Assembly: GCF_015910535.1 (NCBI RefSeq)
Contig: NZ_JACBJG010000008.1
Coordinates: forward strand, 1-64,000
Source: Saccharomonospora sp. NB11
Lineage (GTDB): Bacteria; Actinomycetota; Actinomycetes; Mycobacteriales; Pseudonocardiaceae
Direction: 5' to 3'
Length of the DNA stretch: 64,000 nucleotides
The position numbers were made by a program, and so were the translations under genes. Each line of letters starts with the position of its first letter. Within the stretch, counting starts at the first letter, position 1. This document shows, in pieces, positions 5,030 through 32,847 of the stretch. The notes beneath the pieces are model-generated. The model was not told the origin of the DNA. It worked only from the letters and a program-made list of their open reading frames with translations, and did not search any database.

Positions 5030-5362
5030 GGACTATCCCCGCGTGCCCGGGGCCGGCCAACGGCGAAGTCCGCGCCGACATCCGCTGGAGGGACTATCCC
5101 CGTGTGCGCGGGGCCGACGGGCCAGGGATGGGTCGCGGCGGCGCTTCGCGCGGACTATCCCCGCGTGCGCGGGGCCGACCGTGTGAACTGGCGTGACGAT
5201 CAGATGAGCGTGGGACTATCCCCGCGTGCGCGGGGCCGACCGTGTGAACTGGCGTGACGATCAGATGAGCGTGGGACTATCCCCGCGTGCGCGGGGCCGA
5301 CTCCGCGCCGGGACGCCGTGCCGGGCAGGAGCGAGGACTATCCCCGCGTGCGCGGGGCCGAC
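5030..5362 (-). CRISPR. Type I-E-like array A1, 6 repeats
   Basis: Repeats of 28 bp start at 5030, 5091, 5152, 5213, 5274 and 5335. On the plus strand they begin GGACTATCCCCGCG and end GCGCGGGGCCGAC; spacers are 33 nt. The inverted-repeat core and the minus-strand end (GGGGATAGTCC) match the I-E repeat class, in which the crRNA handle follows the stem, so transcription is on the minus strand with the leader at the high-coordinate end. The first two repeats from the left are mutated, as expected at the leader-distal end. Two adjacent spacers (5180-5212 and 5241-5273) are identical. No type I-E cas genes are in the window. Confidence 0.95.
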
Positions 5363-8731: not shown

Positions 8732-9124
8732 GGACATCCCCGGGTGCGCGGGGCCGACGCCTTCATGACACCGACGTCGTCGGCCCGGGCCGGACCATCC
8801 CCGCGTGCGCGGGGCCGACGTGATCCAGCAGAAGCGCGTGGTGATGTAGGTGGGACCATCCCCGCGTGCGCGGGGCCGACTGCCCGGCTGGTGTGGACCA
8901 GCCCGAACGCGACGGACCATCCCCGCGTGCGCGGGGCCGACTCGGTCGTGGGGATGGCCACGGCCGGGTTTCTGGGACCATCCCCGCGTGCGCGGGGCCG
9001 ACGCCGAGGCTCAGGCACATCAGCCACGGCCGAGCGGACCATCCCCGCGTGCGCGGGGCCGACCCACACGAACTCCTCATCCCGGTAGATGGCCAGGGAC
9101 CATCCCCGCGTGCGCGGGGCCGAC
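8732..9124 (-). CRISPR. Type I-E-like array A2, 7 repeats
   Basis: Repeats start at 8732 (mutated, 27 bp), 8792, 8853, 8914, 8975, 9036 and 9097. The plus-strand form begins GGACCATCCCCGCG and ends GCGCGGGGCCGAC; spacers are 33 nt. The decayed repeat is at the low-coordinate end and the conserved leader follows 9124, so the array is transcribed on the minus strand. The repeat differs from array A1 at the GGACCAT/GGACTAT position. Confidence 0.95.
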
Positions 9125-11622: not shown

Positions 11623-12445
11623 CCGAGTATTTCGGGGCCGCGGGGCCGATTCCTCCAAGGGAGTCAGCGTGTACGACGCGCTGGACCATCCCCGCGTGCG
11701 CGGGGCCGATGGCCAGCGGCGCGACCGTGAGCAGGCCTGTCGCTGGTCCATCCCCGCGTGCGCGGGGCCGATTGCTGACGAACGATCCGGAACAAGCTCG
11801 ACAGTGGTCCATCCCCGCGTGCGCGCGGGGCCGATGGCCGTGGCGGCGTCGGGTTCTACGACGTCACAGGTCCATCCCCGCGTGCGCGGGGCCGATCACC
11901 ACGACGCAGCGAAGCACGATCCCAAGACGGGTCCATCCCCGCGTGCGCGGGGCCGATTCGGCGTCGACGCGGACGGCGAAAACGAATCGCGGTCCATCCC
12001 CGCGTGCGCGGGGCCGATGGATGGAGACCCGTCGGAGATGACCCGGCAACTGGTCCATCCCCGCGTGCGCGGGGCCGATCCGCCGAGGACTCGCGCCAAC
12101 TCGCCCGCGACCGGTCCATCCCCGCGTGCGCGGGGCCGATGCTCCGCTGTCGGTGACGGAGGCGGCCCTCGAGGGTCCATCCCCGCGTGCGCGGGGCCGA
12201 TCGCGGGTGCCACGCCGCCCCGGCGGGTACCGGAGGTCCATCCCCGCGTGCGCGGGGCCGATTCTCGACGGGCACCCGCCCACCGGGGCGGGGCGGGTCC
12301 ATCCCCGCGTGCGCGGGGCCGATCCCCTGATCCACCGCGGGAGAATGATCACGAAGGGTCCATCCCCGCGTGCGCGGGGCCGATCGTGAGCTCGCCCGCT
12401 GCTGGGGTCACATCACCGGTCCATCCCCGCGTGCGCGGGGCCGAT
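11623..12445 (-). CRISPR. Type I-E-like array A3, 13 repeats plus a degenerate one
   Basis: Intact repeats start at 11683, 11745, 11806, 11869, 11930, 11991, 12052, 12113, 12174, 12235, 12296, 12357 and 12418. They begin GGTCCATCCCCGCG and end GCGCGGGGCCGAT, a variant distinct from A1, A2, A4 and A5 (GGAC, GAC). A half-preserved repeat occupies 11623-11650. The repeat at 11806 has a 2-nt insertion (GTGCGCGCGGGG). Leader at the high-coordinate end, so transcription is on the minus strand. This is the longest array in the window. Confidence 0.95.
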
Positions 12446-12901: not shown

Positions 12902-13229
12902 GCAGCTCGGCATCCTTCGCGGGGCCGACCTGGTATCGCTGCCGAAAGGGCGGACTGGACCATCCCCGCGTGCGCGGGGCCGACTGCCCGCCACACCTCG
13001 ACCGGAACCTCTCCTGGTGGACCATCCCCGCGTGCGCGGGGCCGACGAGCCACTGGCCATCGGGGCCGCACCACTGCGGGGACCATCCCCGCGTGCGCGG
13101 GGCCGACGTACGCGGAGCAGGACGTGGTGATCAAGGGCGGGGACCATCCCCGCGTGCGCGGGGCCGACGACCCGCTCTCGGAGACGCTGGAGGCGCCGAC
13201 GGGACCATCCCCGCGTGCGCGGGGCCGAC
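12902..13229 (-). CRISPR. Type I-E-like array A4, 5 repeats plus a degenerate one
   Basis: Repeats start at 12957, 13019, 13080, 13141 and 13202 (GGACCATCCCCGCG to GGGGCCGAC), with spacers of about 33 nt. A decayed repeat ending TCGCGGGGCCGAC is at 12902-12929. Leader at 13230. Minus-strand transcription as in the other I-E arrays. Confidence 0.95.
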
Positions 13230-15538: not shown

Positions 15539-16176
15539 AAAACATCCCCGCGTGTGCGGGGCCGACTGACTCCACATGTCGGCAGACCACAGGGGCACCG
15601 GACCATCCCCGCGTGCGCGGGGCCGACGACTCGGACTGGATGAACTCCGCGTTCGAGTACGGACCATCCCCGCGTGCGCGGGGCCGACCACGCCCTTGAC
15701 ACCGGCCGCAATGAGTACGTCGGACCATCCCCGCGTGCGCGGGGCCGACGGCGCGCGCCCTGCCGCGATCTCGCCGGTTGACGGACCATCCCCGCGTGCG
15801 CGGGGCCGACCGTCACCCTGTTCGTCGACGCCACCGACCCCGAGGACCATCCCCGCGTGCGCGGGGCCGACGCATCGTCACCGCGCAGGCACGAACGCAC
15901 CACGGGACCATCCCCGCGTGCGCGGGGCCGACCGACCCGCACACTGAACTGCTCGCGTTGGAACTGGACCATCCCCGCGTGCGCGGGGCCGACGGCGAGG
16001 AAGCGGTCGACGCTGCCGCCCGCGAGGGACCATCCCCGCGTGCGCGGGGCCGACCCGAGGCGCGCGAAGCCGTCCTTGCCGGTCGCCGGACCATCCCCGC
16101 GTGCGCGGGGCCGACGCGCCCAGGGAGACGAGACCTCCGCCACCACCGGGACCATCCCCGCGTGCGCGGGGCCGAC
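15539..16176 (-). CRISPR. Type I-E-like array A5, 11 repeats
   Basis: Repeats start every 61 bp at 15539 (mutated, GTGTGCGGGG), 15600, 15661, 15722, 15783, 15844, 15905, 15966, 16027, 16088 and 16149. They begin GGACCATCCCCGCG and end GGGGCCGAC. Leader follows at 16177. The distal repeat is decayed, the rest are uniform. This array is the closest to the type III effector operon, 300 bp from its 3' end. Confidence 0.95.
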
Positions 16177-16245: not shown

Positions 16246-16478
16246 CGTGGTCATCCGTTCTCTCCGGAAGGAGACAAGGTCAGTCTTCCCATGGTGAGTT
16301 CCCTCGGTGATGTCCCGGCTGACCCTCAGGGAGCGCGTTGCATCGCCGTTGTCATCGTGCCCTAGCGGAGCCTCAATCACCGATGCCTTGCCTCCCTGCC
16401 GTCCAGAGCAGCGCTGCGAGCGTGATCCCCGTCGGCGCGCGATCGGGCGTAGCGCAGCGATGACGTCGCCATGCTGTG

Positions 16479-16991
16479 TCAGCCTCCCGTCGCCGCGTCC
16501 TCTACTTCGTCGTCGGGCATGGGGGTGACCACGGGGTCCGGCAACAACTCCGACGGCAGGTCGTCCTTGTGTCCGACGAACGGCGCGCACAGTGGCAGGT
16601 GCGGCAGCAGGCGTACGTGCTCGCGGCGGCCGAGGACGTTCGCCGTTCCCCTGTACTGCTTGACTCGGTCGTCGTTGGGTTCCCAGTGGCGAATCCAGGC
16701 GACGGTCGGCTCTATTTTCTTGTCGTTGCGGGTCCAGGGAAGCGGGAACTCGACGTCGAGGGTGAGGACCGCCGCCCACCAGTACGGCACGTCGAGACGG
16801 ACCCGCAGCCACCGGTGCCTGGTGAACGCCCACAGGTGAGTGGTGGCCGGGGGAGTGGCGGGCATCGGTTCGAGGTGGAAGCCGCCGGTGTCGGTCCAGG
16901 CCGCGGGCCAGTCCCGCGTGTGTTCGTGCAGCAGCGCCCAATCGGCATGTTCGTGGCGGCCGCTGCCGTACAGGGTCCAGGTGTGGGTCAT
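16479..16991 (-). CDS. Csx19-like type III-D accessory protein
   Basis: A 170-aa protein from ATG 16991 (MTHTWTLYGSGRHEHADWAL), rich in Trp and Pro, with YWWAAVLTLDVEFPLPW and VGHKDDLPSELLPDP. It is the last gene of the six-gene effector operon and overlaps the tandem-Cas7 gene as ATGA. Position, size and Trp-rich character fit Csx19, a small subunit known from some III-D complexes, but I cannot confirm similarity by eye. The alternative is an unrelated operon-specific subunit. Confidence 0.45.
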   Translation of the reverse strand: MTHTWTLYGSGRHEHADWALLHEHTRDWPAAWTDTGGFHLEPMPATPPATTHLWAFTRHRWLRVRLDVPYWWAAVLTLDVEFPLPWTRNDKKIEPTVAWIRHWEPNDDRVKQYRGTANVLGRREHVRLLPHLPLCAPFVGHKDDLPSELLPDPVVTPMPDDEVEDAATGG

Positions 16992-18235
16992 GCGGCAATC
17001 TCCCCGGTGAGGCGGTCGGCCAGTGTGGTCAGGTCCGGGCGGGTCCACTCGGACGTGATTCTCACGGTGCCGAGGCCCGCTGTCGTGCGGCCTCCGATAC
17101 CGACGAGCCCGTCGTGCAGGTCGGTGAGCACGGTGTCGATGAGCAGGCGGTCGACGTCGTCGAGTGGTTCGAGTGCGTAGACGCGCAGTCGGAATCGGCC
17201 CGCGGTGACCACTTCGTCCGTGAAGAGAAGTTGCTCGCGGGCGCCGCCGGTGAAGCGGTCGATGGCCACGTGTGTGCGCAGATCGGTCGTGGCGTTGTCG
17301 ATGACACTGTCGGAGACGGCGATCTTGGCGCGACGCGCGTTCCGGCTTTCCCCACTGAAGCCGAAGAGGCGACACGGGTGGCACTCACCGCACCGGCGGT
17401 CGGCACAGGCTCCGGCACCGACGACGCGGCACACGTACTCGGCTCGCGACCGCAGATTGCCCTTCAGTGTGGAGCCGGGGACGACGAGTCGGCCGTCACT
17501 CCGGAGAACCTCGTTGATGATCGGGCGGTCGGAGGTGCTGTCGGCGGTGGGTTTTCCCGCGCTGATGTGCAGGCCGTCGATGATCTCGAACGTGACGTCG
17601 TAGTCGGGTTCGAGTGGGCGCTGCGGTTCCGCGAGCGGTTCCGGCGCGGGGTAGTCGTCGGGGAACCGCAGGTGCAGCCAGGTGTGCAGGCCGTGGACCG
17701 TGGTCAGGTCGTACTTGCGGTGGCCGAGGCCGACGACGGAACAGCGGCCCGCGTCGTGGCTGGCCCCGCGCCCGAGGCGGGGCCGCCACTCCTGAAGAGC
17801 TCGGAGGAACGGCTCTTCGCGTTGATCGGGGTTGTCCCAGCTCAACACGATGTCGAACTCCGTGCCCGCCGGGAGAACGGTGACTCCGTGCAGCATGGTG
17901 TTGGCCGGCGCGCCGCGTTCCCGGTCGATGGCGGTGCGGTGTCGCACGGTGCCGTTCGTGTCGCCGAGATACCGGGTGCCCAACACCTGGATGCTCGATG
18001 GGATGCGTTCGACGTCGTTGGCGATGCCGAACAGCGTTTTCTCCGGCAACAGCTCATCATAGGTGGCGCAGTGCGCGCGCAGGCTGCCCGCGACCGTGGT
18101 GCCGGGGAGATGGGGACGCCCCGTGGTGTCTCTGCGGAGCGGCAGCACGTTGTCCACATCGGGAAGGGCTTCCGGTGCGGTGACTCCGCCGGGTGTGTCC
18201 ATGCGCAGTTTGACGGTGATCACCATGCTGATCAT
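16988..18235 (-). CDS. Tandem Cas7-Cas7 RAMP protein (Cas7-2x)
   Basis: A 415-aa protein from ATG 18235 with two RAMP halves. The first has LPGTTVAGSLRAH near residue 45, the second VPGSTLKGNLRSR near 245, each the loop typical of Cas7-family backbone subunits. A cysteine cluster follows in the second half (CADRRCGECHPCRLFGFSGE), as in many Cas7 zinc knuckles, and the C-terminus has a glycine loop, GIGGRTTAGLGTV. In type III-D variants a fused Cas7-Cas7 contributes two backbone positions and target-RNA cleavage sites. It overlaps its neighbours by 4 nt at both ends. Confidence 0.8.
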   Translation of the reverse strand: MISMVITVKLRMDTPGGVTAPEALPDVDNVLPLRRDTTGRPHLPGTTVAGSLRAHCATYDELLPEKTLFGIANDVERIPSSIQVLGTRYLGDTNGTVRHRTAIDRERGAPANTMLHGVTVLPAGTEFDIVLSWDNPDQREEPFLRALQEWRPRLGRGASHDAGRCSVVGLGHRKYDLTTVHGLHTWLHLRFPDDYPAPEPLAEPQRPLEPDYDVTFEIIDGLHISAGKPTADSTSDRPIINEVLRSDGRLVVPGSTLKGNLRSRAEYVCRVVGAGACADRRCGECHPCRLFGFSGESRNARRAKIAVSDSVIDNATTDLRTHVAIDRFTGGAREQLLFTDEVVTAGRFRLRVYALEPLDDVDRLLIDTVLTDLHDGLVGIGGRTTAGLGTVRITSEWTRPDLTTLADRLTGEIAA

Positions 18236-19221
18236 GTGTGAGCCTCCGGTCGCGGCGGGGCAACATACAGGGCGCCGAACCCTTCGCGGCGCCGGAGTCC
18301 GATGCCGCGGGCGGCGAGTGTTCGCCGTGCCTCCGGGCTCGGTGCTTCCGCGCAGCGGATGCGATAGGTGGAGCCGGCGGCCACCGCGCGTTCGACGGGT
18401 TTGGGCAGCCCGCTGGCGGCGTGCCAGCCTCCTACTTCGTCCCATCGGGTCCAGGCACCGACGACCTCGAGAGCCTCCACCCCGAGGACGTCGGACAGCT
18501 CACGCAGGTCGGGTTGGTCCGCGGGGAACCCGAAGTCGTCACAGAACGCGGCAGGGGCGGCCAGCCGCAGGATGACGTCCTGGCCCACGCACTCGACCGG
18601 ATCGGGCTCGGCCGTGGTGTCGACGGCGAGGGTGACACTTCCTCGCAGGCTCCGTCGCGAACCGAACGACAGCGTGTGGATCGGCTCGTCGCCGCAGAAC
18701 AGGGCACGTGTCGCCGGGCCGTGCAACCACCCGCTCAGACGCGCTTGTTCCTTCAGCATGCTCTGGGTGAACAGGTGGCCGTCGCGGGCGACTCCTTCCG
18801 CGGTCAGAGCCGTCGTGGTGCGGGTTTCGAGCGGCACACGACCGCGGGCTTGGCCCTTGCTGAAGACCAGCGGGTCCTCGCATTCGTCACACGTCGTGGC
18901 GTGCTCGTCGTAGGCGGCGTCCCATTCGCTGCGACAGTTTTCCGACGCGGCGTACTTGTGGCGTTTCACCGACAGCGGCACCGGAAGACTGGCCTCGGAG
19001 TGCAGGGGCCCGAAGCTGCCCGCTCCCTCGAACGTCTCCAGGAACTCGGGGAGTTGCGTGACCTCCCGGCCGCGTCGGCGAATCCACGCGGCGGCCAACG
19101 CTCCGCGCAGCACCGATCCGGGAACGTGGTTGTGGGTCTCCTGCCGGAAGTCGGCGCGGGCGTTACGGCCCGCGGCGACCGGTTGGGTGAGAGTGACCGT
19201 GATACGCGCGTACTCGCTCAT
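18232..19221 (-). CDS. csx10: Csx10/Cas5-like RAMP subunit
   Basis: A 329-aa protein from ATG 19221 (MSEYARITVTLTQPVAAGRN). Early ETHNHVPGSVLRGALAAAWI is the RAMP substrate loop; CRSEWD and CDECEDPL give a metal knuckle; RVPLETRTTTALTAEGVARD then GHLFTQSMLKEQARLSGWLH matches the Csx10 central region. The end RGIGLRRREGFGALYV is the glycine-rich RAMP loop. Csx10 is the Cas5-like subunit that marks type III-D systems and holds the crRNA 5' handle. The size excludes the large Cas7-5-11 fusion seen in some III-D loci. Confidence 0.75.
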   Translation of the reverse strand: MSEYARITVTLTQPVAAGRNARADFRQETHNHVPGSVLRGALAAAWIRRRGREVTQLPEFLETFEGAGSFGPLHSEASLPVPLSVKRHKYAASENCRSEWDAAYDEHATTCDECEDPLVFSKGQARGRVPLETRTTTALTAEGVARDGHLFTQSMLKEQARLSGWLHGPATRALFCGDEPIHTLSFGSRRSLRGSVTLAVDTTAEPDPVECVGQDVILRLAAPAAFCDDFGFPADQPDLRELSDVLGVEALEVVGAWTRWDEVGGWHAASGLPKPVERAVAAGSTYRIRCAEAPSPEARRTLAARGIGLRRREGFGALYVAPPRPEAHT

Positions 19222-19774
19222 GCCGACCTCAGTGCCAGGAAGCGTTCGACAGCCGCTTGGTCCAGTTCCTCGGTGGTGCAGGTGATGGTGACCCAGCCCA
19301 GTCCGCGTCGGCGGTCGGCGCCGAGCGAGCGGGTGGCTTGGCCCGCCACGGCGAGCACGAGGCGGTGGGTTTGCAGCGTCGCCTTGTCCAGCGGATGTCG
19401 CTGCGCGATCGTGAAACGCGCCGTCTCGGCGCCGATCTGCTCGGTGACGGCGAGCATGTCGGGTTTCGCGGCGTGGGTGTGTGAATCGACTGCTACCCGG
19501 GCCGCGGGGCGCGTCTGGTGCCATCCGTTGTCGGGGACGGCGTCGTGCCACAGCCACGGGCATTCGATGCTGGACGAACCGAACACCTCATGGACCACTC
19601 TGGTGTGGGGTTCGAGCAGCCGCAGTGCGGTGGCGCGCATGACGCCTTTGAGGCTGCTGCTGGGCAGTGGCCGGTGGGCATCGACTCCGGCGTCCAAACC
19701 GGGGCGAGCGTGCCCGGTGGAGACCCGGAACGGCGTGTGGAAGCGCACCTCGAATTCGAGTGTGGACATCTCGG

Positions 19775-19778
<4 letters not shown>
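19218..19778 (-). CDS. cas7: Cas7-family RAMP subunit
   Basis: A 186-aa protein from ATG 19778 (MTEMSTLEFEVRFHTPFRVS). LPSSSLKGVMRATALRLLEP is the Cas7 loop, and LGADRRRGLGWVTITC near the end is the glycine-rich RAMP motif. Short, Csm3-like in layout. It overlaps cas10 upstream and csx10 downstream by 4 nt. Expected role: one backbone position of the effector, with target-RNA cleavage through a loop Asp that I cannot place by eye. Confidence 0.75.
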
Positions 19779-24426
<4,648 letters not shown>

Positions 24427-25180
24427 CCTCGCCGGACGGCCACGGATCTACCCGGCGAGGCTGCACGGCGCGGCGTGCGCGTTGCTGGAAACCACCCGCG
24501 ATGATCATCGCCGGCAGCACAAGCCGTTCGCGGTCGGCCCGCTGTACGACGTCGGCGGCCACACCCGTTGGCGGCTCGGCTGGCTCACCGACCACGACCC
24601 GCCACCTCTTCCGCGACTGGTCCGGTTCGGCGACACTCCGTGTCCGGTGTTGGACGTGCGCGTGGAGCAGACCAGCTACGCCGAACTCGCCCGCTCGGAA
24701 CCTGCTCGTCACGCGCAACTGCGCATGACGAGCCCGCTGTATTTCTCTCGCAGCGGTCGCGACCACCCACTGCCGGATCCGGTGCTCATCGTGCGCAGCG
24801 CCGCCCAGCGATGGAACGCCCATGCGCCCGAAATGTTCACCATCGCCGACAAGCAAATCCGAGCGGTGACCGGCACGGTGTTCCTGCACGACATGGAAGG
24901 CGAGACGGTACGCACCCCGGTATCGGCGACCATGCACCAGACGGGCTTCCTCGGCTCCGTGAGGCTCGGACTGACCAAGTCCGCCGACCACGCCGCCCGC
25001 ATGGTGTTCGCCGCGCTCCTGCGCTTCGCCGCCCTGGCCGGTGTCGGGGCCCAAACCACTCACGGCTTCGGCAGCATCCAACTGGAAGAGCTCTCCGCGT
25101 GATCTCCGGCAGTTGCAGGACGTCGCAACCGCCCAGTCAGAGGCCGGTACAGATCAACGACGAATCGCCGGAAAACCCGC

Positions 25181-25306
25181 CGGTCCTCGCAACCGGCATC
25201 GCCGCAGGTCAACGCCCTGTGGAAGGCGGAGGGAAGGCTGCCGCCGGACGGCATGTGGATCTTGCTTGTCCCGGTCCTCGCGACCGGCTACCATTTCCGC
25301 AGGTCA
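25181..25306 (+). promoter_or_regulatory. Leader of array III-1 with a duplicated element
   Basis: CGGTCCTCGCAACCGGCATC followed by GCCGCAGGTCAA is at 25181-25212, and a second form, CGGTCCTCGCGACCGGCTAC then CATTTCCGCAGGTCA, at 25272-25306. The copies start 91 bp apart. Both are also found before array III-2 with 90-bp spacing. The second copy ends 22 bp before the first repeat. Likely leader/integration or promoter element. Confidence 0.7.
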
Positions 25307-25328
25307 CAAGGGGTGCCAAACCCGACCA

Positions 25329-25922
25329 GTCGCAAAGCCTCGCCCGACCTGAAGGGCATAGAAACATGTTTTCCGGTAGGCAATCCACTTTCTGCTCGTT
25401 GTCGCAAAGCCTCGCCCGACCTGAAGGGCATAGAAACGTTCCACGACATGTGCATGAACAGCGCGATCACGGCGGTCGCAAAGCCTCGCCCGACCTGAAG
25501 GGCATAGAAACTAGGAATCCCTGGAGCTCTTTATACAGTCTGTTAGAGTCGCAAAGCCTCGCCCGACCTGAAGGGCATAGAAACTCATGTTCATGATTCG
25601 GAGGAGATAACCTCTTGAGTGAAGTCGCAAAGCCTCGCCCGACCTGAAGGGCATAGAAACTCTTCAGCTCCTTGGCGTCGCAAAGCCTCGCCCGACCTGA
25701 AGGGCATAGAAACGGTAGAATCCTGCTGTGTCAGTCAGTGGGTTTCGTCGCAAAGCCTCGCCCGACCTGAAGGGCATAGAAACCTTTTATTCGGGAAGAC
25801 GAAGATACGTCTCAGCAGGTCGCAAAGCCTCGCCCGATCTGAAGGGCATAGAAACGTTCACATCATGCGGAGTCAGGTTGACGATATGCGTCGCAAAGCC
25901 TCGCCCGATCTGAAGGGCATAG
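25329..25922 (+). CRISPR. Type III array III-1, 9 repeats of 37 bp
   Basis: Repeats start at 25329, 25401, 25475, 25548, 25624, 25677, 25747, 25819 and 25890. They begin GTCGCAAAGCCTCGCCCGAC and end CTGAAGGGCATAGAAAC. The last two have CCGATCTGA instead of CCGACCTGA and the last is cut after GGGCATAG, so the 3' end is the old end. Spacers are 33-39 nt except one of 16 nt (25661-25676). The end ATAGAAAC is the type III handle, so transcription is on the plus strand, between cas6 and the RT-Cas1 gene. Confidence 0.97.
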
Positions 25923-25972
25923 CTTCACAGTTGAATAGACGGGACGACATCTGACGCGTATCTGGGGGTGCC

Positions 25973-27844
25973 ATGGGGGTGTTGTATTCTCGGGCTTTCA
26001 CGCAGCAGGCGTTATTGGATGCGTGGGATCAGGTCCGGGATTCGGCGTTGGAGGATGGGCGTCCGGATTTCGAGGTGGAGCGGTTCGAGGCGGACGCCGC
26101 CCGGCTGATCAGTAAGTTAGCGGCCGAATTGCGGGAAGGCACGTGGCGGCCCTCGCCCGTGCGGCGGGTGGAGATCCCGAAACCGTCGGGTGGGGTGCGG
26201 CGGCTGGGAGTACCCGTCCTGGCGGATCGGATCGTGGAGCGCGCCTTGCTGGCGGTACTGGATCCCGAGATCGACCCGTTGCTGTTGCCGTGGAGCTTCG
26301 CCTACCGGCGGGGCCTCGGGCCGCGCGATGCGGTGGCGGCGTTGACCGAAGTCCGCGATACCGGCGCGACATGGGTAGCTCGTGCCGACATCAAGGACTG
26401 CTTCGAGCGCATTCCTCAGTGGGAAGTGCTGCGCCGTCTACGGGAAGTGGTCGACGACCAGCGGGTGATCCACCTGGTGGGCATGCTGCTGGACCGCCGA
26501 GTCCGAGGCGGCCGGACAAATCCAGACGACCGCGGGCGCGGGCTCCACCAAGGCAGCGTGCTCTCCCCGCTGCTGAGCAACCTGTATTTGGATGTGTTCG
26601 ATCGAGCGATGCTGGAGGAAGGCTGGCGGGTGATCCGCTACGGCGACGACTTCGCCATCCCGGTCACCAGCCGGTCGGAAGGGGAACAGGCGCTGCGGGC
26701 GGCGAGCACCCGGTTGGAAGACCTCCGGCTGGAGCTCAACACTGGTAAATGCCACGTTGCCTCGTTCGAGGACGGGGTTCGGTTCCTCGGTGAGACTCTC
26801 ACCGCTTCCACGCTGGCGGCCTCGGAGATGCTGTCCCACCCCACCGAGACCGTTGTCTACGTGGACCGCCAGGGCAGCCTCGTCCGCGTGCGAGGAGACC
26901 GCCTGATCGTCGTGGACGGCGACGAATCGTTGTTGCGGCTGAATCTGCGGCGGGTACGGCAGGTGGTGTGCTTCGGGCGTGTCGGACTCACCACCACGTT
27001 CCTGCACCGGGCAGCACAACGTGGCATCGAGGTCGTGCTGCTCACCGAGCAGGGCACCCTCGGCAGCAGGCTCACACCACCGACGACCTCCGACCCGACA
27101 GTGCGCCGCGCCCAGTACCGGGCCGCTGACGATGCGACACGGACTCGTCGCCTTGCCGCCGCCTTCGTCGACGGCAAGATCGACAACATGCGGGTGTCGC
27201 TGCTGCGTGCCGCCCGACGCCGCGAAGACGGCGACGCTTCCGCGGCCGCGGAACGGCTGCGCGAAGCAGGACAACGGTTGAGCGATGCCGCAGACCTCGA
27301 CGCGGTGCTGGGGTGGGAAGGCAGCTCCACGCGGGAATACATGCAGGGGCTGCGGCGACTGCTCGATCCGGAGTGGGACTTCCACGGGCGACGTCGCAGG
27401 CCACCGACCGATCCGGTCAACGCCATGCTCTCCTACGGCTACACGCTGCTGTGTCACGAGGCGATCGCCGCAGCGGAAGCCGCCGGACTCGACCCGATGG
27501 TCGGTTTCCTGCACCGGCACCGCTGGGGACGGCCCGCGCTCGCGCTAGACCTCATGGAGGAGTTCCGGCCGATGACCGTGGACGTCGCCGTGTGGCGCTG
27601 TATCAGCACGCGGCAGGTGCGGCCCGACCAGTTCACCACCGAGCCCGACACCGGATGCCGCATGGGCGACGACGCCAAGCACACCTTCCTCGCCGCCTAC
27701 GAAAAACGCATGCTCACCCTGATTTCCCACCACGGCACAGGACGCCGGGTCTCCTACCGGGTGGCGCTGTCCCTACAGGCGAAAGCACTCGCCAAATCGC
27801 TGCTCGACCCGGACGAGCCGTACCGGGCGCTGCGATGGAAATGA
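25973..27844 (+). CDS. cas1: Reverse transcriptase-Cas1 fusion
   Basis: A 623-aa protein from ATG 25973. Residues 1-280 are a group II intron-like reverse transcriptase: VARADIKDCFERIP with D139, GLHQGSVLSPLLSN (190-203) and YGDD at 223-226, all intact. Residues about 293-623 are Cas1 (VVYVDRQGSLVRVRGDRLIV), with the expected metal ligands E449 (GWEGSSTREY), H514 (GFLHRHRWGR) and D526 (ALALDLMEEFRP). Such fusions, known from type III systems, can acquire spacers from RNA by integration and reverse transcription. There is no Cas6 fusion; cas6 is separate upstream. cas2 follows after 7 nt. Confidence 0.95.
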   Translation: MGVLYSRAFTQQALLDAWDQVRDSALEDGRPDFEVERFEADAARLISKLAAELREGTWRPSPVRRVEIPKPSGGVRRLGVPVLADRIVERALLAVLDPEIDPLLLPWSFAYRRGLGPRDAVAALTEVRDTGATWVARADIKDCFERIPQWEVLRRLREVVDDQRVIHLVGMLLDRRVRGGRTNPDDRGRGLHQGSVLSPLLSNLYLDVFDRAMLEEGWRVIRYGDDFAIPVTSRSEGEQALRAASTRLEDLRLELNTGKCHVASFEDGVRFLGETLTASTLAASEMLSHPTETVVYVDRQGSLVRVRGDRLIVVDGDESLLRLNLRRVRQVVCFGRVGLTTTFLHRAAQRGIEVVLLTEQGTLGSRLTPPTTSDPTVRRAQYRAADDATRTRRLAAAFVDGKIDNMRVSLLRAARRREDGDASAAAERLREAGQRLSDAADLDAVLGWEGSSTREYMQGLRRLLDPEWDFHGRRRRPPTDPVNAMLSYGYTLLCHEAIAAAEAAGLDPMVGFLHRHRWGRPALALDLMEEFRPMTVDVAVWRCISTRQVRPDQFTTEPDTGCRMGDDAKHTFLAAYEKRMLTLISHHGTGRRVSYRVALSLQAKALAKSLLDPDEPYRALRWK

Positions 27845-27851
27845 GGAAACA

Positions 27852-28133
27852 GTGATCGTGGTCGTGGCCTACGACATCGTCGACGACCGGCGTCGCGAGG
27901 ACGTCGCGATGCTGCTGTCGGGATACGGGCCCCGGGTGCAACTGTCAGTGTTCGAATGCGAGGTGCGCGACCGCGACGAACTCCGTGCCCTGCGCGCCGC
28001 GCTCAGAGAATGCATCGACCCCCTGGAAGACCAGGTACGCCTGTATCCCACCACCGCACGAAGCTTCGAAGAGCGCTACATCATCGGAGCTCGCACCGTC
28101 GAAGAACGAGCCGACTACTGGATCGTCCGATGA
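27852..28133 (+). CDS. cas2: Cas2
   Basis: A 93-aa protein from GTG 27852 (IVVVAYDIVDDRRREDVAML). The early AYDIVDDRRR and the later VQLSVFECEV are the hallmark strand and core of Cas2. It starts 7 nt after the RT-Cas1 stop. With RT-Cas1 it should form the integrase complex. Leader III-2 begins 38 bp downstream. Confidence 0.95.
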   Translation: MIVVVAYDIVDDRRREDVAMLLSGYGPRVQLSVFECEVRDRDELRALRAALRECIDPLEDQVRLYPTTARSFEERYIIGARTVEERADYWIVR

Positions 28134-28171
28134 GGTGGTACAGGCTGCCCCGTGGAGGCCGGGATTCGCGT

Positions 28172-28297
28172 CGGTCCTCGCAAAAGCGTCTGCGCAGGTC
28201 AAGCCCGATGAGAACAGTGAGTACGGGGTGGTGGAGTGCGATCCGCCAACCACCGTTGGAGCGGTCCTCGCAACCCGCTACCATCACCGCAGGTCAA
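28172..28297 (+). promoter_or_regulatory. Leader of array III-2 with a duplicated element
   Basis: CGGTCCTCGCAAAAGCGTCT then GCGCAGGTCAA at 28172-28202, and CGGTCCTCGCAACCCGCTAC then CATCACCGCAGGTCAA at 28262-28297. These match the two elements of leader III-1 in sequence, order and spacing (90 bp), although the DNA between them differs. Confidence 0.7.
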
Positions 28298-28320
28298 CAC
28301 CCGCGCCGGACCCCCCATCC

Positions 28321-28649
28321 GTCGCAAAGCCTCGCCCGGTTTGAAGGGCATAGAAACGCTCGAGCTCAGCCGGAGTCAAGCTCACTCCGTCCTGTCGCAA
28401 AGCCTCGCCCGGTTTGAAGGGCATAGAAACACCTCCTCGCGCATTTCCCCTTGTAGGAATCCCTGGAGCTCGTCGCAAAGCCTCGCCCGATTTGAAGGGC
28501 ATAGAAACGTCCTTCGCACCTGGTGCAGGTGCAGCAGCCCGGGTGTCGCAAAGCCTCGCCCGATTTGAAGGGCATAGAAACGGTAGACCTCGTCAAACTT
28601 CTCTACGAGTTTTCGGGTCGCAAAGCCTCGCCCGGCTTGAAGGGCATAG
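28321..28649 (+). CRISPR. Type III array III-2, 5 repeats and a truncated sixth-type end
   Basis: Repeats start at 28321, 28394, 28472, 28545 and 28617; the last is truncated after GGGCATAG, so four complete units and one terminal one are present. The middle differs from III-1: CCCGGTTTGAAGGG in the first two, CCCGATTTGAAGGG in the next two and CCCGGCTTGAAGGG in the last. Spacers are 35-41 nt. Same orientation and handle ATAGAAAC as III-1. The spacer at 28431-28471 ends with 18 nt that also begin a spacer of III-1. Confidence 0.95.
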
Positions 28650-29270
28650 GGTCTTGTCGAAATCGGTGTCGCATCCGGTGCTTTCCTTTGTTGTAAACTT
28701 TGCTGAGGATGAAACTCGCGTGCCCCGGTTTGTGTGTGCAAAAATCCAGGAAGGCCTGATGTGGAAGTGGCTTGCAGCGGCTGGATAGGCACTTGTAGGA
28801 GTATCGAAACGATATATTGCTGACAAGTCGTAGTCCGCGTGACTTCTTACCGTAAAGGCGTGTGAACAGCGGCTGCTGCACTGTGTACGGAACCCTCGAT
28901 GGATCGGGTTCTGGCTTGCCACGCTGGGGGCACTCGACGTGTGAACTGCTGGCACGAAGTGCTTCACAAGGGCGGACAGGTGCAGGTTGTCAGCGCGAAG
29001 ACGACCTGGCGGGCCGGCCCGCGGGCACCGACAGGGAGCACAGACAGGCCGGACGGTGCATCACCGTGATGCAGGCGGGCAACGCCTTCCGATGTCACTG
29101 CTCTCGCCGCAGCCATCCCACTCGACGGAACCGTGACTCGAAACGCACATCCGTTTCCCTGAACACCGTGTTTCTGTTACCGGGATCGCGGTCGTCCGTG
29201 CCGGAACGTCGAGTCAGCGTTTGCGGCATGGCACTCGCCGCTTCGCCAAGACCGGAGGAAGAAGGCCGCC
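28650..29270. other. Intergenic region after array III-2
   Basis: About 620 bp with no supported gene. The first 200 bp are AT-rich for this genome, suggesting foreign or decayed DNA. No repeat or RNA gene recognised. Confidence 0.5.
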
Positions 29271-30919: not shown

Positions 30920-32083
30920 ATGAGCGGAATCAACCCGGATGCGTTGGCGTACGTGCTTGGCGGTGAGATCCGTGCTCACCGGGAAGCCGCCCGCCTGGTG
31001 CAACGCGAACTTGCGCGCCGAGTGGGTGTCTCGCACAGCATGGTTGTTCGCTGGGAGCGCGGCATCCGTGTTCCCGACGCGGCCCATCTCGTGAAGTTTG
31101 CCGATGTGTTGGGCCTCTCCGCAGTTGACCGTGATCGCCTAACGCAGCTCGCCCGCGAGGCCGCAGACGAACCTGTCAATGAGGTGTCGGCGGGTGAGCG
31201 TGGTCAGGCCGACGCGCTAACTACGTTGATCGAATTCGAACGTTCGGCAACCGCGATCACGGACGTTTCACCCCTGTTGGTGCCGGGCTTGATGCAGACC
31301 AGCGACTACGCGCGCATCGTGCTCGGTCGTGCAGCGGACGTTGAGACCCGGACAGCCGTGCGTGTCGGGCGGCGCGATGTCCTCACCCGCAGGCGGAACC
31401 CCGTTCAGTACACGGCGATGATCCTTGAGTCTGTGCTGCACCAACGCATAGGTAGTGAAGTCATGGCAGATCAGCTACGGCTGATCTACACGCTGGCTGA
31501 TCTTCCGAACGTGTGTGTCCGTATCATCCCCGACGCGGTTGGGCTTACACGGGCGCACATGGGTGCGTTCATGCTGATCGAATTCGCTAAAGCTGAGCCG
31601 ATCGTTCACCTGGAACACCTGTCGACGACAGCTTTTCTACGGGATCGGGCAGACGTGGAGGCGCACATGGGAGCGCGAACGGACCTTGATCAGGTGGCGA
31701 TGAGCCCGGACGATTCGATCGAGCTCATCGCGGATGTCATCGAAAAAATGGAGACGACACAATGGCGGTACACGAGGCGTTCGGCGAATGGCGTAAATCG
31801 TCGTTCAGTGGCGAACAGACGAACTGTGTGGAGTTCCGCCGCACGCCAGACGGGGTGGAGGTCCGTAACTCGAAGCGGCCTGACGCTGGGACTGTCGCCT
31901 ACACCGACAGCGAGTGGAAGGCGTTCATCGCTGGCGCGAAGAACGGCGAGTTCGATATCTGAAGCCGTCTTTGCACGCTGGCCCGCACCTCGGTCATGGT
32001 GCGGGTTGGCTTGTCGCGCAGCCGCTTTTTCCGAGGCCATCCCCGACCGTGAGACCGGGGAGCCTTTGCTCTCAGCGGTCTGA
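30920..32083 (+). CDS. XRE regulator with DUF5753-like domain, unusually extended C-terminus
   Basis: A 387-aa frame from ATG 30920. HTH at residues about 14-70 (ALAYVLGGEIRAHREAARLV, RRVGVSHSMVVRWERGIRVP). The central part (ITDVSPLLVPGLMQTSDYAR, LESVLHQRIGSEVMADQLRL) is the DUF5753 domain typical of actinomycete XRE regulators paired with DUF397 proteins. The natural end should be near IELIADVIEKMETTQW (about residue 283), but no stop occurs and the frame runs 100 residues further across the DUF397 gene at 31762 in another frame. A lost stop or a small indel is likely. Confidence 0.8.
   Translation: MSGINPDALAYVLGGEIRAHREAARLVQRELARRVGVSHSMVVRWERGIRVPDAAHLVKFADVLGLSAVDRDRLTQLAREAADEPVNEVSAGERGQADALTTLIEFERSATAITDVSPLLVPGLMQTSDYARIVLGRAADVETRTAVRVGRRDVLTRRRNPVQYTAMILESVLHQRIGSEVMADQLRLIYTLADLPNVCVRIIPDAVGLTRAHMGAFMLIEFAKAEPIVHLEHLSTTAFLRDRADVEAHMGARTDLDQVAMSPDDSIELIADVIEKMETTQWRYTRRSANGVNRRSVANRRTVWSSAARQTGWRSVTRSGLTLGLSPTPTASGRRSSLARRTASSISEAVFARWPAPRSWCGLACRAAAFSEAIPDRETGEPLLSAV
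31762..31962 (+). CDS. DUF397 protein, first copy
   Basis: A 66-aa protein from ATG 31762 (MAVHEAFGEWRKSSFSGEQT, CVEFRRTPDGVEVRNSKRPD, ending AFIAGAKNGEFDI). The W-RKSS-FSG-...CVE...VRNSK signature is diagnostic for DUF397, small proteins encoded beside XRE/DUF5753 regulators in actinomycetes and tied to development and antibiotic control. It overlaps the extended XRE frame completely from its start. Confidence 0.9.
   Translation: MAVHEAFGEWRKSSFSGEQTNCVEFRRTPDGVEVRNSKRPDAGTVAYTDSEWKAFIAGAKNGEFDI
31982..32005 (+). terminator. Hairpin after the first DUF397 gene
   Basis: CCCGCACC pairs with GGTGCGGG across TCGGTCAT. An extended 15-bp version follows the second DUF397 gene, showing that the terminator was duplicated with the gene. 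Confidence 0.6.
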
Positions 32084-32084
32084 A

Positions 32085-32201
32085 AAGACGGTGGCCGGTT
32101 ACCGGGACGCGGTCGATACCCTGTGCCGGTCGGCGATGAGCCCCGCCGAATCCATGCAGCTCATCGCCGATGCCCTCGAACAGAAGGAGACGCAACCGTG
32201 A
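32085..32201 (+). pseudogene. C-terminal remnant of a second XRE/DUF5753 regulator
   Basis: VAGYRDAVDTLCRSAMSPAE then SMQLIADALEQKETQP ends at TGA 32201, overlapping the GTG of the next DUF397 gene. It corresponds to the last 35 residues of a DUF5753 regulator; the rest of the gene is missing. It is preceded by the tail of the first duplication unit. Confidence 0.7.
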
Positions 32202-32401
32202 GCGGACAGCGCAAGCACGACGGCGCCTGGCGCAAATCGTCGTTCAGTGGCGGGCAGACTGACTGTGTGGAGTTCCGTCGCACGCCGGACGGGGTGGAAG
32301 TCCGTAACTCCAAGCGGCCCGAGGCCGGGACCGTCGCCTACACCGACAGTGAGTGGAAGGCGTTCATCGCCGGCGCGAAGAACGGCGAGTTCGACATCTG
32401 A
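32198..32401 (+). CDS. DUF397 protein, second copy
   Basis: A 67-aa protein from GTG 32198 (SGQRKHDGAWRKSSFSGGQT). After the first ten residues it is nearly identical to the first copy, ending in the same AFIAGAKNGEFDI. It overlaps the stop of the XRE remnant as GTGA, the normal coupling in this gene pair. The surrounding 430 bp are a tandem duplication with a deletion in the regulator. Confidence 0.9.
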   Translation: MSGQRKHDGAWRKSSFSGGQTDCVEFRRTPDGVEVRNSKRPEAGTVAYTDSEWKAFIAGAKNGEFDI

Positions 32402-32412
32402 ACCGTCCCTGC

Positions 32413-32450
32413 AAGTCAACCCGCACCTCGGTCATGGTGCGGGTTGACTT
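32413..32450 (+). terminator. Hairpin after the second DUF397 gene
   Basis: AAGTCAACCCGCACC (32413-32427) pairs perfectly with GGTGCGGGTTGACTT (32436-32450) across an 8-nt loop TCGGTCAT. Confidence 0.75.
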
Positions 32451-32847
32451 GTCGTGCAGCCTCTTTTCCGAGGCCCTCCCCGATCTGAGAGCAGGGGCAT
32501 CTGCCCTCAGCGGTCTGGTCGAGCGACGGCCCCGGCATCAGCGCCGTCATCATGGCGCTCGCGGACGCCTTCTACGAGGCCGCGCTCGATCAGCGGACGG
32601 AGCTGTGAGAAGTCCGGTTCTGCACGGGAAGCCCACGCCGCCACAGGAAGCGCCCCAGACCACCCGCCCGGCATCGTTCCTGGTCAACACCACCGGCCAC
32701 AAGTGGCCGCTCCGTGGCCTTCCCGTGGTCCCGGGTGGCGCTGAGTATGGGTGTCACCGCGGACTGGTGCCGTGAAACGGAACGCGGCGGCGGCCACACA
32801 AACAGTCCGCTATCGGAAACGACCGTCACGACTGGGGAGACAAACGA

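Follow-up and report, generated by a model that had tools for sequence, protein, structure and literature searches.

The first 64,000 nucleotides (nt) of contig NZ_JACBJG010000008.1 of Saccharomonospora sp. NB11, hereafter the window, carry a complete type III-D-like CRISPR-Cas locus at positions 16479-28653. Ten genes, all with open frames, lie there in two divergent groups together with two CRISPR arrays, and they likely form an adaptive immune system in which memory would be derived from RNA, invader RNA would trigger the synthesis of cyclic oligoadenylate, and a membrane protein gated by a SAVED domain would damage the membrane. A preliminary description of the sequence had proposed such a locus, with Cas6, a fusion of reverse transcriptase (RT) and Cas1, Cas2, two arrays and a two-helix SAVED-like membrane protein beside the effector genes; each part was found in its place and family searches agree with its naming. 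The features are as follows.

16479-16991, minus strand: small effector subunit of 170 amino acids (aa), Cas11/Csx24-type by PADLOC Cas11 matches
16988-18235, minus strand: Cas7-2x, a tandem Cas7 of 415 aa, from family searches and a solved relative
18232-19221, minus strand: Csx10, the Cas5 of III-D, 329 aa, from NCBIfam and PADLOC profiles
19218-19778, minus strand: single Cas7 of 186 aa, from profile searches
19775-21088, minus strand: Cas10 of 437 aa, HD domain not found, GGDD at residues 256-259, conserved C103, C106, C129 and C132
21175-23187, minus strand: Cas7-insertion protein of the TIGR03986 family, 670 aa
23284-24426, plus strand: predicted SAVED-TM effector of 380 aa, with two N-terminal transmembrane (TM) helices (about 14-41 and 54-78) and a C-terminal SAVED domain
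24380-25102, plus strand: Cas6 of 240 aa, from profile searches, with a 47-nt overlap with the SAVED-TM gene
25103-25328, plus strand: likely leader of array 1
25329-25926, plus strand: CRISPR array 1, nine 37-nt repeats, the last degenerate, and eight spacers (33-39 nt, one of 16 nt)
25512-25547, plus strand: array 1 spacer whose first 18 nt are the last 18 nt of the spacer at 28431-28471
25973-27844, plus strand: RT-Cas1 fusion of 623 aa, with an RT part containing YGDD (about 12-280) and a Cas1 part (about 294-623)
27852-28133, plus strand: Cas2 of 93 aa (Pfam, E 4.1e-19)
28134-28320, plus strand: likely leader of array 2
28321-28653, plus strand: CRISPR array 2, five 37-nt repeats, the last degenerate, and four spacers (35-41 nt)
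28431-28471, plus strand: array 2 spacer whose last 18 nt are the first 18 nt of the spacer at 25512-25547

The minus-strand genes are transcribed in the order Cas7-insertion, Cas10, Cas7, Csx10, Cas7-2x and small protein, the first two lying 86 nt apart and all later neighbours overlapping by 4 nt, and the plus strand runs SAVED-TM, Cas6, array 1, RT-Cas1, Cas2 and array 2. The search for this gene order in other actinomycete genomes that the preliminary description had suggested was successful: genome G556, which belongs to another genus (g174, to which G430 is also assigned), holds all ten genes in the same order. Arrays separate Cas6 from RT-Cas1 there and also follow Cas2. Further arrays of III-type repeats flank the syntenic locus of G556 on both outer sides (L010 5071-6106 and L011 268-606), their repeats diverging.

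Profile searches revealed the composition of the effector. The Cas7-insertion protein matched the NCBIfam model TIGR03986 at 376.7 bits, exceeding the cut-off of 161.35 (E 3.3e-112), and the two other Cas7 forms that had been named matched the PADLOC models Cas7_IIId (tandem, E 1.5e-41) and a Csm3-type model (single, E 5.5e-38). For the proposed Csx10-like subunit, TIGR02674 was the best NCBIfam match (E 5.3e-23), yet at 81.8 bits it lay under the cut-off of 177.3; three PADLOC Cas5_IIId models matched at 1.3e-22 or better. Cas10 exceeded the Pfam cut-off for its palm2 domain (E 2.1e-13) and its GGDD motif is invariant in 16/16 aligned sequences, itself included. As the preliminary description had read it, this Cas10 is HD-less, no HD family being among its matches in the NCBIfam, Pfam and PADLOC searches. 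All 17 members of the small-protein family matched the PADLOC model 'Cas11, putative small subunit of type III' and 16/17 matched Csx24; the AlphaFold model of this protein, built on a two-sequence alignment, had a mean predicted confidence (pLDDT) of 34.0.

Solved structures were searched with seven of the proteins, namely Cas10, the three Cas7 forms, the small protein, SAVED-TM and RT-Cas1. The only relative of Cas10 at E <= 0.001 was the Synechocystis III-Dv Cas10 (8s9t_C, E 1.5e-4), and the best match of Cas7-2x was the III-Dv Cas7-2x (8s9t_D, E 1.6e-15). The TIGR03986 protein matched Cas7-11 chains best, followed by 8s9t_E; the single Cas7 had no solved relative at E <= 0.1, and the profile of the small protein matched no solved chain at E <= 1. 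The locus joins cas10 to Cas5/Cas7-type subunits, as type III does, and holds the Csx10-type Cas5, TIGR03986-family Cas7-insertion and GGDD Cas10 without an HD match that mark III-D broadly. Because Cas10 and the tandem Cas7 resemble III-Dv chains, and on the family evidence, the III-D label in its broad sense is well supported. Speaking against it, the best NCBIfam match of Cas10 was the III-B protein Cmr2 (1.5e-14, under the cut-off); with most matches pointing to III-D, the placement in III-B or III-A that the preliminary description had set as its refutation did not occur.

Judged by its sequence, the locus is nevertheless not of the III-Dv form, since an open reading frame (ORF) of its own encodes each of Cas7, Csx10 and the small subunit, and Csx19 was not found by NCBIfam and solved-chain searches of the small protein. 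The 170-aa gene is not detectably Csx19, as none of its 17 members matched any NCBIfam model at E <= 0.1; the preliminary description had listed a Csx19 model among its proposed checks and had not named this subunit as present. The III-Dv effector of Synechocystis 6803 (PDB 8s9t), as described in PMC11026444, shares the GGDD Cas10, Cas7-2x and TIGR03986-family Cas7-insertion, as well as a downstream stretch with Cas6, adaptation genes and array. It differs in having one Cas7-Cas5-Cas11 fusion and Csx19, whereas the window has separate Cas7 and Csx10 genes and a Cas11/Csx24-like small protein.

The membrane protein belongs to a family with a SAVED domain: PF18145 matched 17/21 orthologues (window protein counted) at E <= 0.01, the best at 2.1e-7, and these sequence matches settle the point. 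Three PADLOC models cover the protein, namely 'Membrane associated CARF' (3e-176), 'C3a205' (7.4e-120) and 'SAVED6--SAVED_TM' (7.4e-104), and the family is therefore already catalogued; a lack of SAVED or CARF similarity, which would have counted against the preliminary description, was not observed. By hydropathy, all 21 orthologues longer than 250 aa have a pair of hydrophobic segments within their N-terminal ~80 residues, and the AlphaFold model of the window protein has helices at about 14-41 and 54-81 (block pLDDT 57-81). The loop between them is acidic (E39 in 19/21 orthologues, D40 in 20/21) and R74, at the end of the second TM helix, is present in 21/21. Positively charged residues flanking TM helices tend to lie inside the cell (the positive-inside rule), and because R74 follows the second helix, both termini, and hence the SAVED domain, are predicted to be cytosolic, on the side where the Cas10 product would be made.

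This predicted topology is the layout of Cap1, which is described as N-in with two TM helices, a cytosolic sensor and a tetrameric pore opened by cyclic tetra-adenylate (cA4) (PMC12642688). Cap1, Cam1 and Csx23 likewise pair a short TM part with a cytosolic cyclic-nucleotide sensor in type III systems; they differ in that their sensors are described as CARF, CARF-like or unique, while that of the window protein is SAVED (PMC12642688, PMC11229360). The SAVED-TM effectors of PADLOC (PDLC01166, 3e-176, and PDLC02014) share both the two N-terminal TM helices and the SAVED domain. 'Transmembrane SAVED effectors' in type III are a published prediction, for which we found no functional data in the accessible part of the source (PMC9704534), and a text search of open-licence papers did not find the term 'SAVED-TM'. 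The sequence had no similar solved chain, a 21-sequence profile giving one match at E 0.42, and no match was found on plasmids or phages.

We then compared the occurrence of the SAVED-TM protein and RT-Cas1. Among 297 genomes of the same family, 21 had a SAVED-TM match and four an RT-Cas1 match at E <= 1e-80; the two occur together only in the window genome and G556. At class level, 7/394 genomes had an RT-Cas1 match, of which only the window genome also had a SAVED-TM match. The 29 SAVED-TM match rows represent 24 loci, the window locus included, which we compared with the ten window proteins over 11 to 20 kb; a partial match in G040, of the same class (E 1.7e-20; tblastn 104 residues, 37.5%), had no cas match nearby and was excluded. 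A complete six-gene effector adjoins SAVED-TM in 15/24 loci, and only two of these 15 (the window locus and G556) have RT-Cas1, from which we conclude that SAVED-TM is the partner of the effector, with which it is co-inherited, and not of RT-Cas1. Cas6 is matched in full at 3/15 complete loci (the window locus, G556 and G577), and the complete locus of G437 has a Cas2 match and a Cas1 match that lacks the RT part. RT-Cas1 is a front end that can be exchanged, which agrees with the description by Silas et al. (PMC5513706).

SAVED-TM adjoins Cas7-insertion in 14/15 complete loci; in G638 (L052 2388-10516), unlike these 14, the effector operon has it at its other end, adjoining the small subunit. 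Across 105 pairs from the 15 loci, SAVED-TM divergence correlated with that of the effector subunits at r 0.88-0.92 (Cas10 0.92) and the subunits correlated among themselves at 0.89-0.97, high values that are also expected from shared descent alone.

The adaptation module consists of a group II-type RT with a YxDD motif fused to Cas1, together with Cas2. RVT_1 (1.1e-27) and Cas_Cas1 (1.9e-89) both match within one 623-aa protein, the YGDD motif of the RT was read directly, and solved Cas1 chains align with the Cas1 part from end to end; Cas6 exceeded its Pfam cut-off (E 1.5e-17). By analogy with a III-B RT-Cas1 for which RNA uptake has been demonstrated (PMC5541045), the window RT-Cas1 probably takes up spacers from RNA. 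Actinobacterial RT-Cas1 fusions are a published clade of 12 records, five with Cmr and seven with Csm A/D effectors (PMC5541045). The window fusion resembles this clade, RT-CRISPR-10, in its lack of a Cas6 domain, its actinobacterial host and the Csm-type (A/D) effector of 7/12 records; SAVED-TM is not mentioned in the accessible part of that source. A predicted conjugative plasmid of Rhodococcus ruber (NZ_CP024892.1:198726-200645) carries an RT-Cas1 region 36% identical over its full length, for which the annotation gives cas1 and a hypothetical protein. In G397 (C34:34984-36848; L012 14982-16849) an RT-Cas1 relative lies in two frames, its RT and Cas1 parts slightly overlapping, for which a frameshift, an assembly error or a real split are candidates; III-D effector genes are present at that locus, with no SAVED-TM match.

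The two arrays hold 12 spacers in total, 33-41 nt long except one of 16 nt, about half the usual length, at 25661-25676. Their leaders lie on the 5' side and have short repeats in common, and array 1 opens with seven identical repeats. The spacers at 25512-25547 and 28431-28471 share 18 nt on the same strand, at the start of the former and the end of the latter, and exact matches to this 18-mer in the 297 family genomes occur only at these two spacers. Among the script-cut spacers (12 of type III, 35 of type I-E and 19 from G556), the only other pair with a common 12-mer is of type I-E. As the overlapping spacers lie one in each array, both arrays independently sampled one source. The same-strand orientation would fit selection for usable CRISPR RNA (crRNA), or RNA-templated uptake, this being one pair with a chance of 1 in 2. 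The shared source itself was not found in the collections searched. Against phages, array 1 gave only cyanophage matches at E 0.1 and array 2 gave none; four cores from 5/12 spacers had 0 exact matches in viral contigs, and a search with a 20-residue peptide found no phage match. Silas et al. report nearly the same lack of targets for the RT-linked spacers of Arthrospira (PMC5513706).

Ka/Ks (nonsynonymous to synonymous rates) is below 1 throughout, at 0.22-0.51 for the seven genes in common with the same-genus genome G453 and 0.09-0.59 for all ten in common with G556. Identity to the G556 counterparts is 84% for RT-Cas1 and 49-63% for the six effector genes, a difference that had hinted at separate transfer. 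Near saturation and hence rough, Ks against G556 was 1.10 for RT-Cas1, 0.99 for Cas2, 0.80 for Cas6 and 0.69-0.94 for the effector and SAVED genes. The excess identity of RT-Cas1 reflects selection, not age, because its Ks is not lower and its Ka/Ks is 0.09. Separate transfer of the RT-Cas1 half was rejected, the Ks of RT-Cas1, Cas2 and Cas6 being similar to or above that of the effector and SAVED genes.

From these data we propose the following course of events. RT-Cas1-Cas2 would insert nucleic acid of the invader, DNA and probably also RNA, at the leader ends of both arrays, and Cas6 would process the array transcript. The crRNA would be held in a complex of Cas10, Csx10, Cas7, Cas7-2x, Cas7-insertion and the small subunit, where binding of invader RNA may activate the GGDD cyclase of the HD-less Cas10. 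The product, presumably a cyclic oligoadenylate, would bind the cytosolic SAVED domain, and from its domain layout the two-helix protein may then oligomerise or open and damage the inner membrane, stopping phage growth through arrest or death of the cell. The preliminary description had outlined RNA sampling, a cyclic nucleotide signal and a membrane response; this outline is the best-supported reading and is kept here in conditional form. It is supported because family and motif evidence, the ten-gene synteny with G556, the adjacency of SAVED-TM and effector and Ka/Ks below 1 agree with it, as do the conserved topology of SAVED-TM, its Cap1-like layout and the 18-nt spacer overlap.

Several observations weigh against this proposal. 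Taken alone, the window SAVED-TM protein lies under the Pfam SAVED cut-off (E 0.0012; its NCBIfam score is also weak, 0.019), and the AlphaFold model of its SAVED domain failed (mean pLDDT 41.7, two-sequence alignment). Three of the 24 loci have only part of the effector (G631, G430b and G517), six have no effector gene within about 9 kb (G568, G398a, G564, G453b, G674 and G686), and four have a stop codon inside the matched SAVED-TM stretch (G517, G431, G631 and G674). No ring nuclease was seen among ten neighbouring ORFs scanned with PADLOC, where the sole matches were weak ones to a single helix-turn-helix regulator. Finally, none of the III spacers tried led to a target, so that the use in defence is putative.

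A narrower account, possible though doubtful, makes a SAVED-gated membrane channel the main or only output, with RNA-written memory and little or no nuclease step, because Cas10 lacks HD and the catalytic aspartates of Cas7-2x are not kept across the clade. Across 1113 surveyed type III loci, HD domains occurred in 3% of III-D Cas10s, a rarity that suggested to its authors that III-D acts mainly through signalling (PMC11229360). In the III-Dv Cas7-2x the catalytic residue is D33 (PMC11026444); in our alignment, which is uncertain by one or two residues at the catalytic loops of Cas7 and Cas7-2x, the corresponding residue is Asp in 1/17 sequences, the window protein having D28 two residues from this first site, and the second loop is rich in acidic residues with no invariant Asp. 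D29 of the single Cas7 is retained in 13/16 alignable proteins (truncated G631 left out). For target RNA cleavage these alignments are mixed, and its loss in the clade is possible.

SAVED-TM might instead be a membrane-tethered sink or ring nuclease limiting cyclic oligoadenylate, the effector proper being encoded elsewhere. SAVED domains can be ring nucleases, as reported in PMC11417357, PMC12751052 and PMC12409355, and the six loci without a nearby effector gene show that SAVED-TM persists there. We consider this unlikely: in the ten-gene set shared with G556, to which annotation was limited, SAVED-TM is the only candidate output gene, and a tether would need less than a pair of TM helices joined by a conserved acidic loop.

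The locus could also be a decaying relic, neither adaptive nor immune any more, given that its arrays are short, with one 16-nt spacer, and that relatives often lose parts. In G453, one block of 8,053 columns (87.6% identity) covers window 16460-24475 and ends inside cas6, leaving a stub at L037 8922-9017, beyond which blastn finds no match to the window. The stub aligns with cas6 nt 3-96 over 96 columns, 86 of them identical, its first part within the SAVED overlap, and it extends 49 nt (window 24427-24475) beyond the SAVED stop. RT-Cas1, Cas2 and III-type arrays are absent at this locus, and the genome has no RT-Cas1 match. On the alignment, G453 lost cas6, because a stub remains after the SAVED gene; RT-Cas1, Cas2 and the arrays would have gone with it, or the ancestor may have had cas6 alone. 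The stub rules out, for cas6 at least, that the window genome gained its cas6-RT-Cas1 half by insertion. Other related loci retain cas6 stubs or Cas7-insertion fragments. A relic is nonetheless quite improbable for the window itself, where all ten frames are open with intact motifs, shared genes have Ka/Ks below 1, seven successive repeats of array 1 are identical, and the overlapping spacers of the two arrays record past independent acquisition.

The proposed immune system shares its genome with a type I-E operon (Cas3, Cse1, Cse2, Cas7, Cas5 and Cas6e), located on another contig (G000:C24:185560-193373; L033 7561-15374), and the window holds the following I-E features.

5152-5362, 8792-9124, 11686-12445, 12956-13229 and 15544-16176: five I-E arrays upstream of the III-D locus, 61-nt period, 35 script-cut spacers

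PF01867 and TIGR03638 each gave one Cas1 match in this genome, both within RT-Cas1; the assembly is listed as 99.98% complete and both models detect Cas1 in an E. coli control. A Cas1 of the I-E operon itself was not found genome-wide by these two models. Cas1-Cas2 is usually specific for its repeat and leader, which counts against RT-Cas1 serving the I-E arrays. That RT-Cas1, as the sole Cas1 found beside an I-E operon and five arrays, also feeds these arrays is thus highly improbable, as the I-E repeats are wholly unlike the 37-nt III repeats, loss of an I-E cas1 leaving fossil arrays is a simpler account, and Cas1 matches occur in 6/12 same-genus genomes, one of them being RT-Cas1 of the window.

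Neighbouring I-E spacers from 5180 and 5241 have 23 different 12-mers in common, which would be about 34 nt in a single run, and one of the two spacers looks like a duplicate. In Saccharomonospora phage PIS 136 there is an array of four repeats and 61-nt period (JX006077.1:15678-15890; L082 3001-3213), with repeats nearly those of the window I-E arrays and no annotated cas gene within about 3 kb; besides itself it had only weak phage matches (best E 2e-3), and it is possibly a phage mini-array that uses the I-E machinery of the host. Elsewhere in the window, a direct repeat of about 436-nt period (31696-32517) overlaps and follows the end of a gene for a helix-turn-helix/DUF5753 regulator.

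As for novelty, which the preliminary description had claimed for the whole set, we did not find the ten-gene combination described among open-licence papers. Each piece and most pairings are, however, already known from the sources consulted (PMC5541045, PMC9704534), as actinobacterial RT-Cas1 with Csm, membrane SAVED proteins and the PADLOC profile all pre-exist. If our proposal is right, the locus would be a compact, naturally complete system for testing memory derived from RNA, the sensing of RNA and one membrane effector side by side. SAVED-TM is an uncharacterised, putative effector family with 15 complete loci to choose from, and its partnership with the effector decides which genes to move together experimentally.

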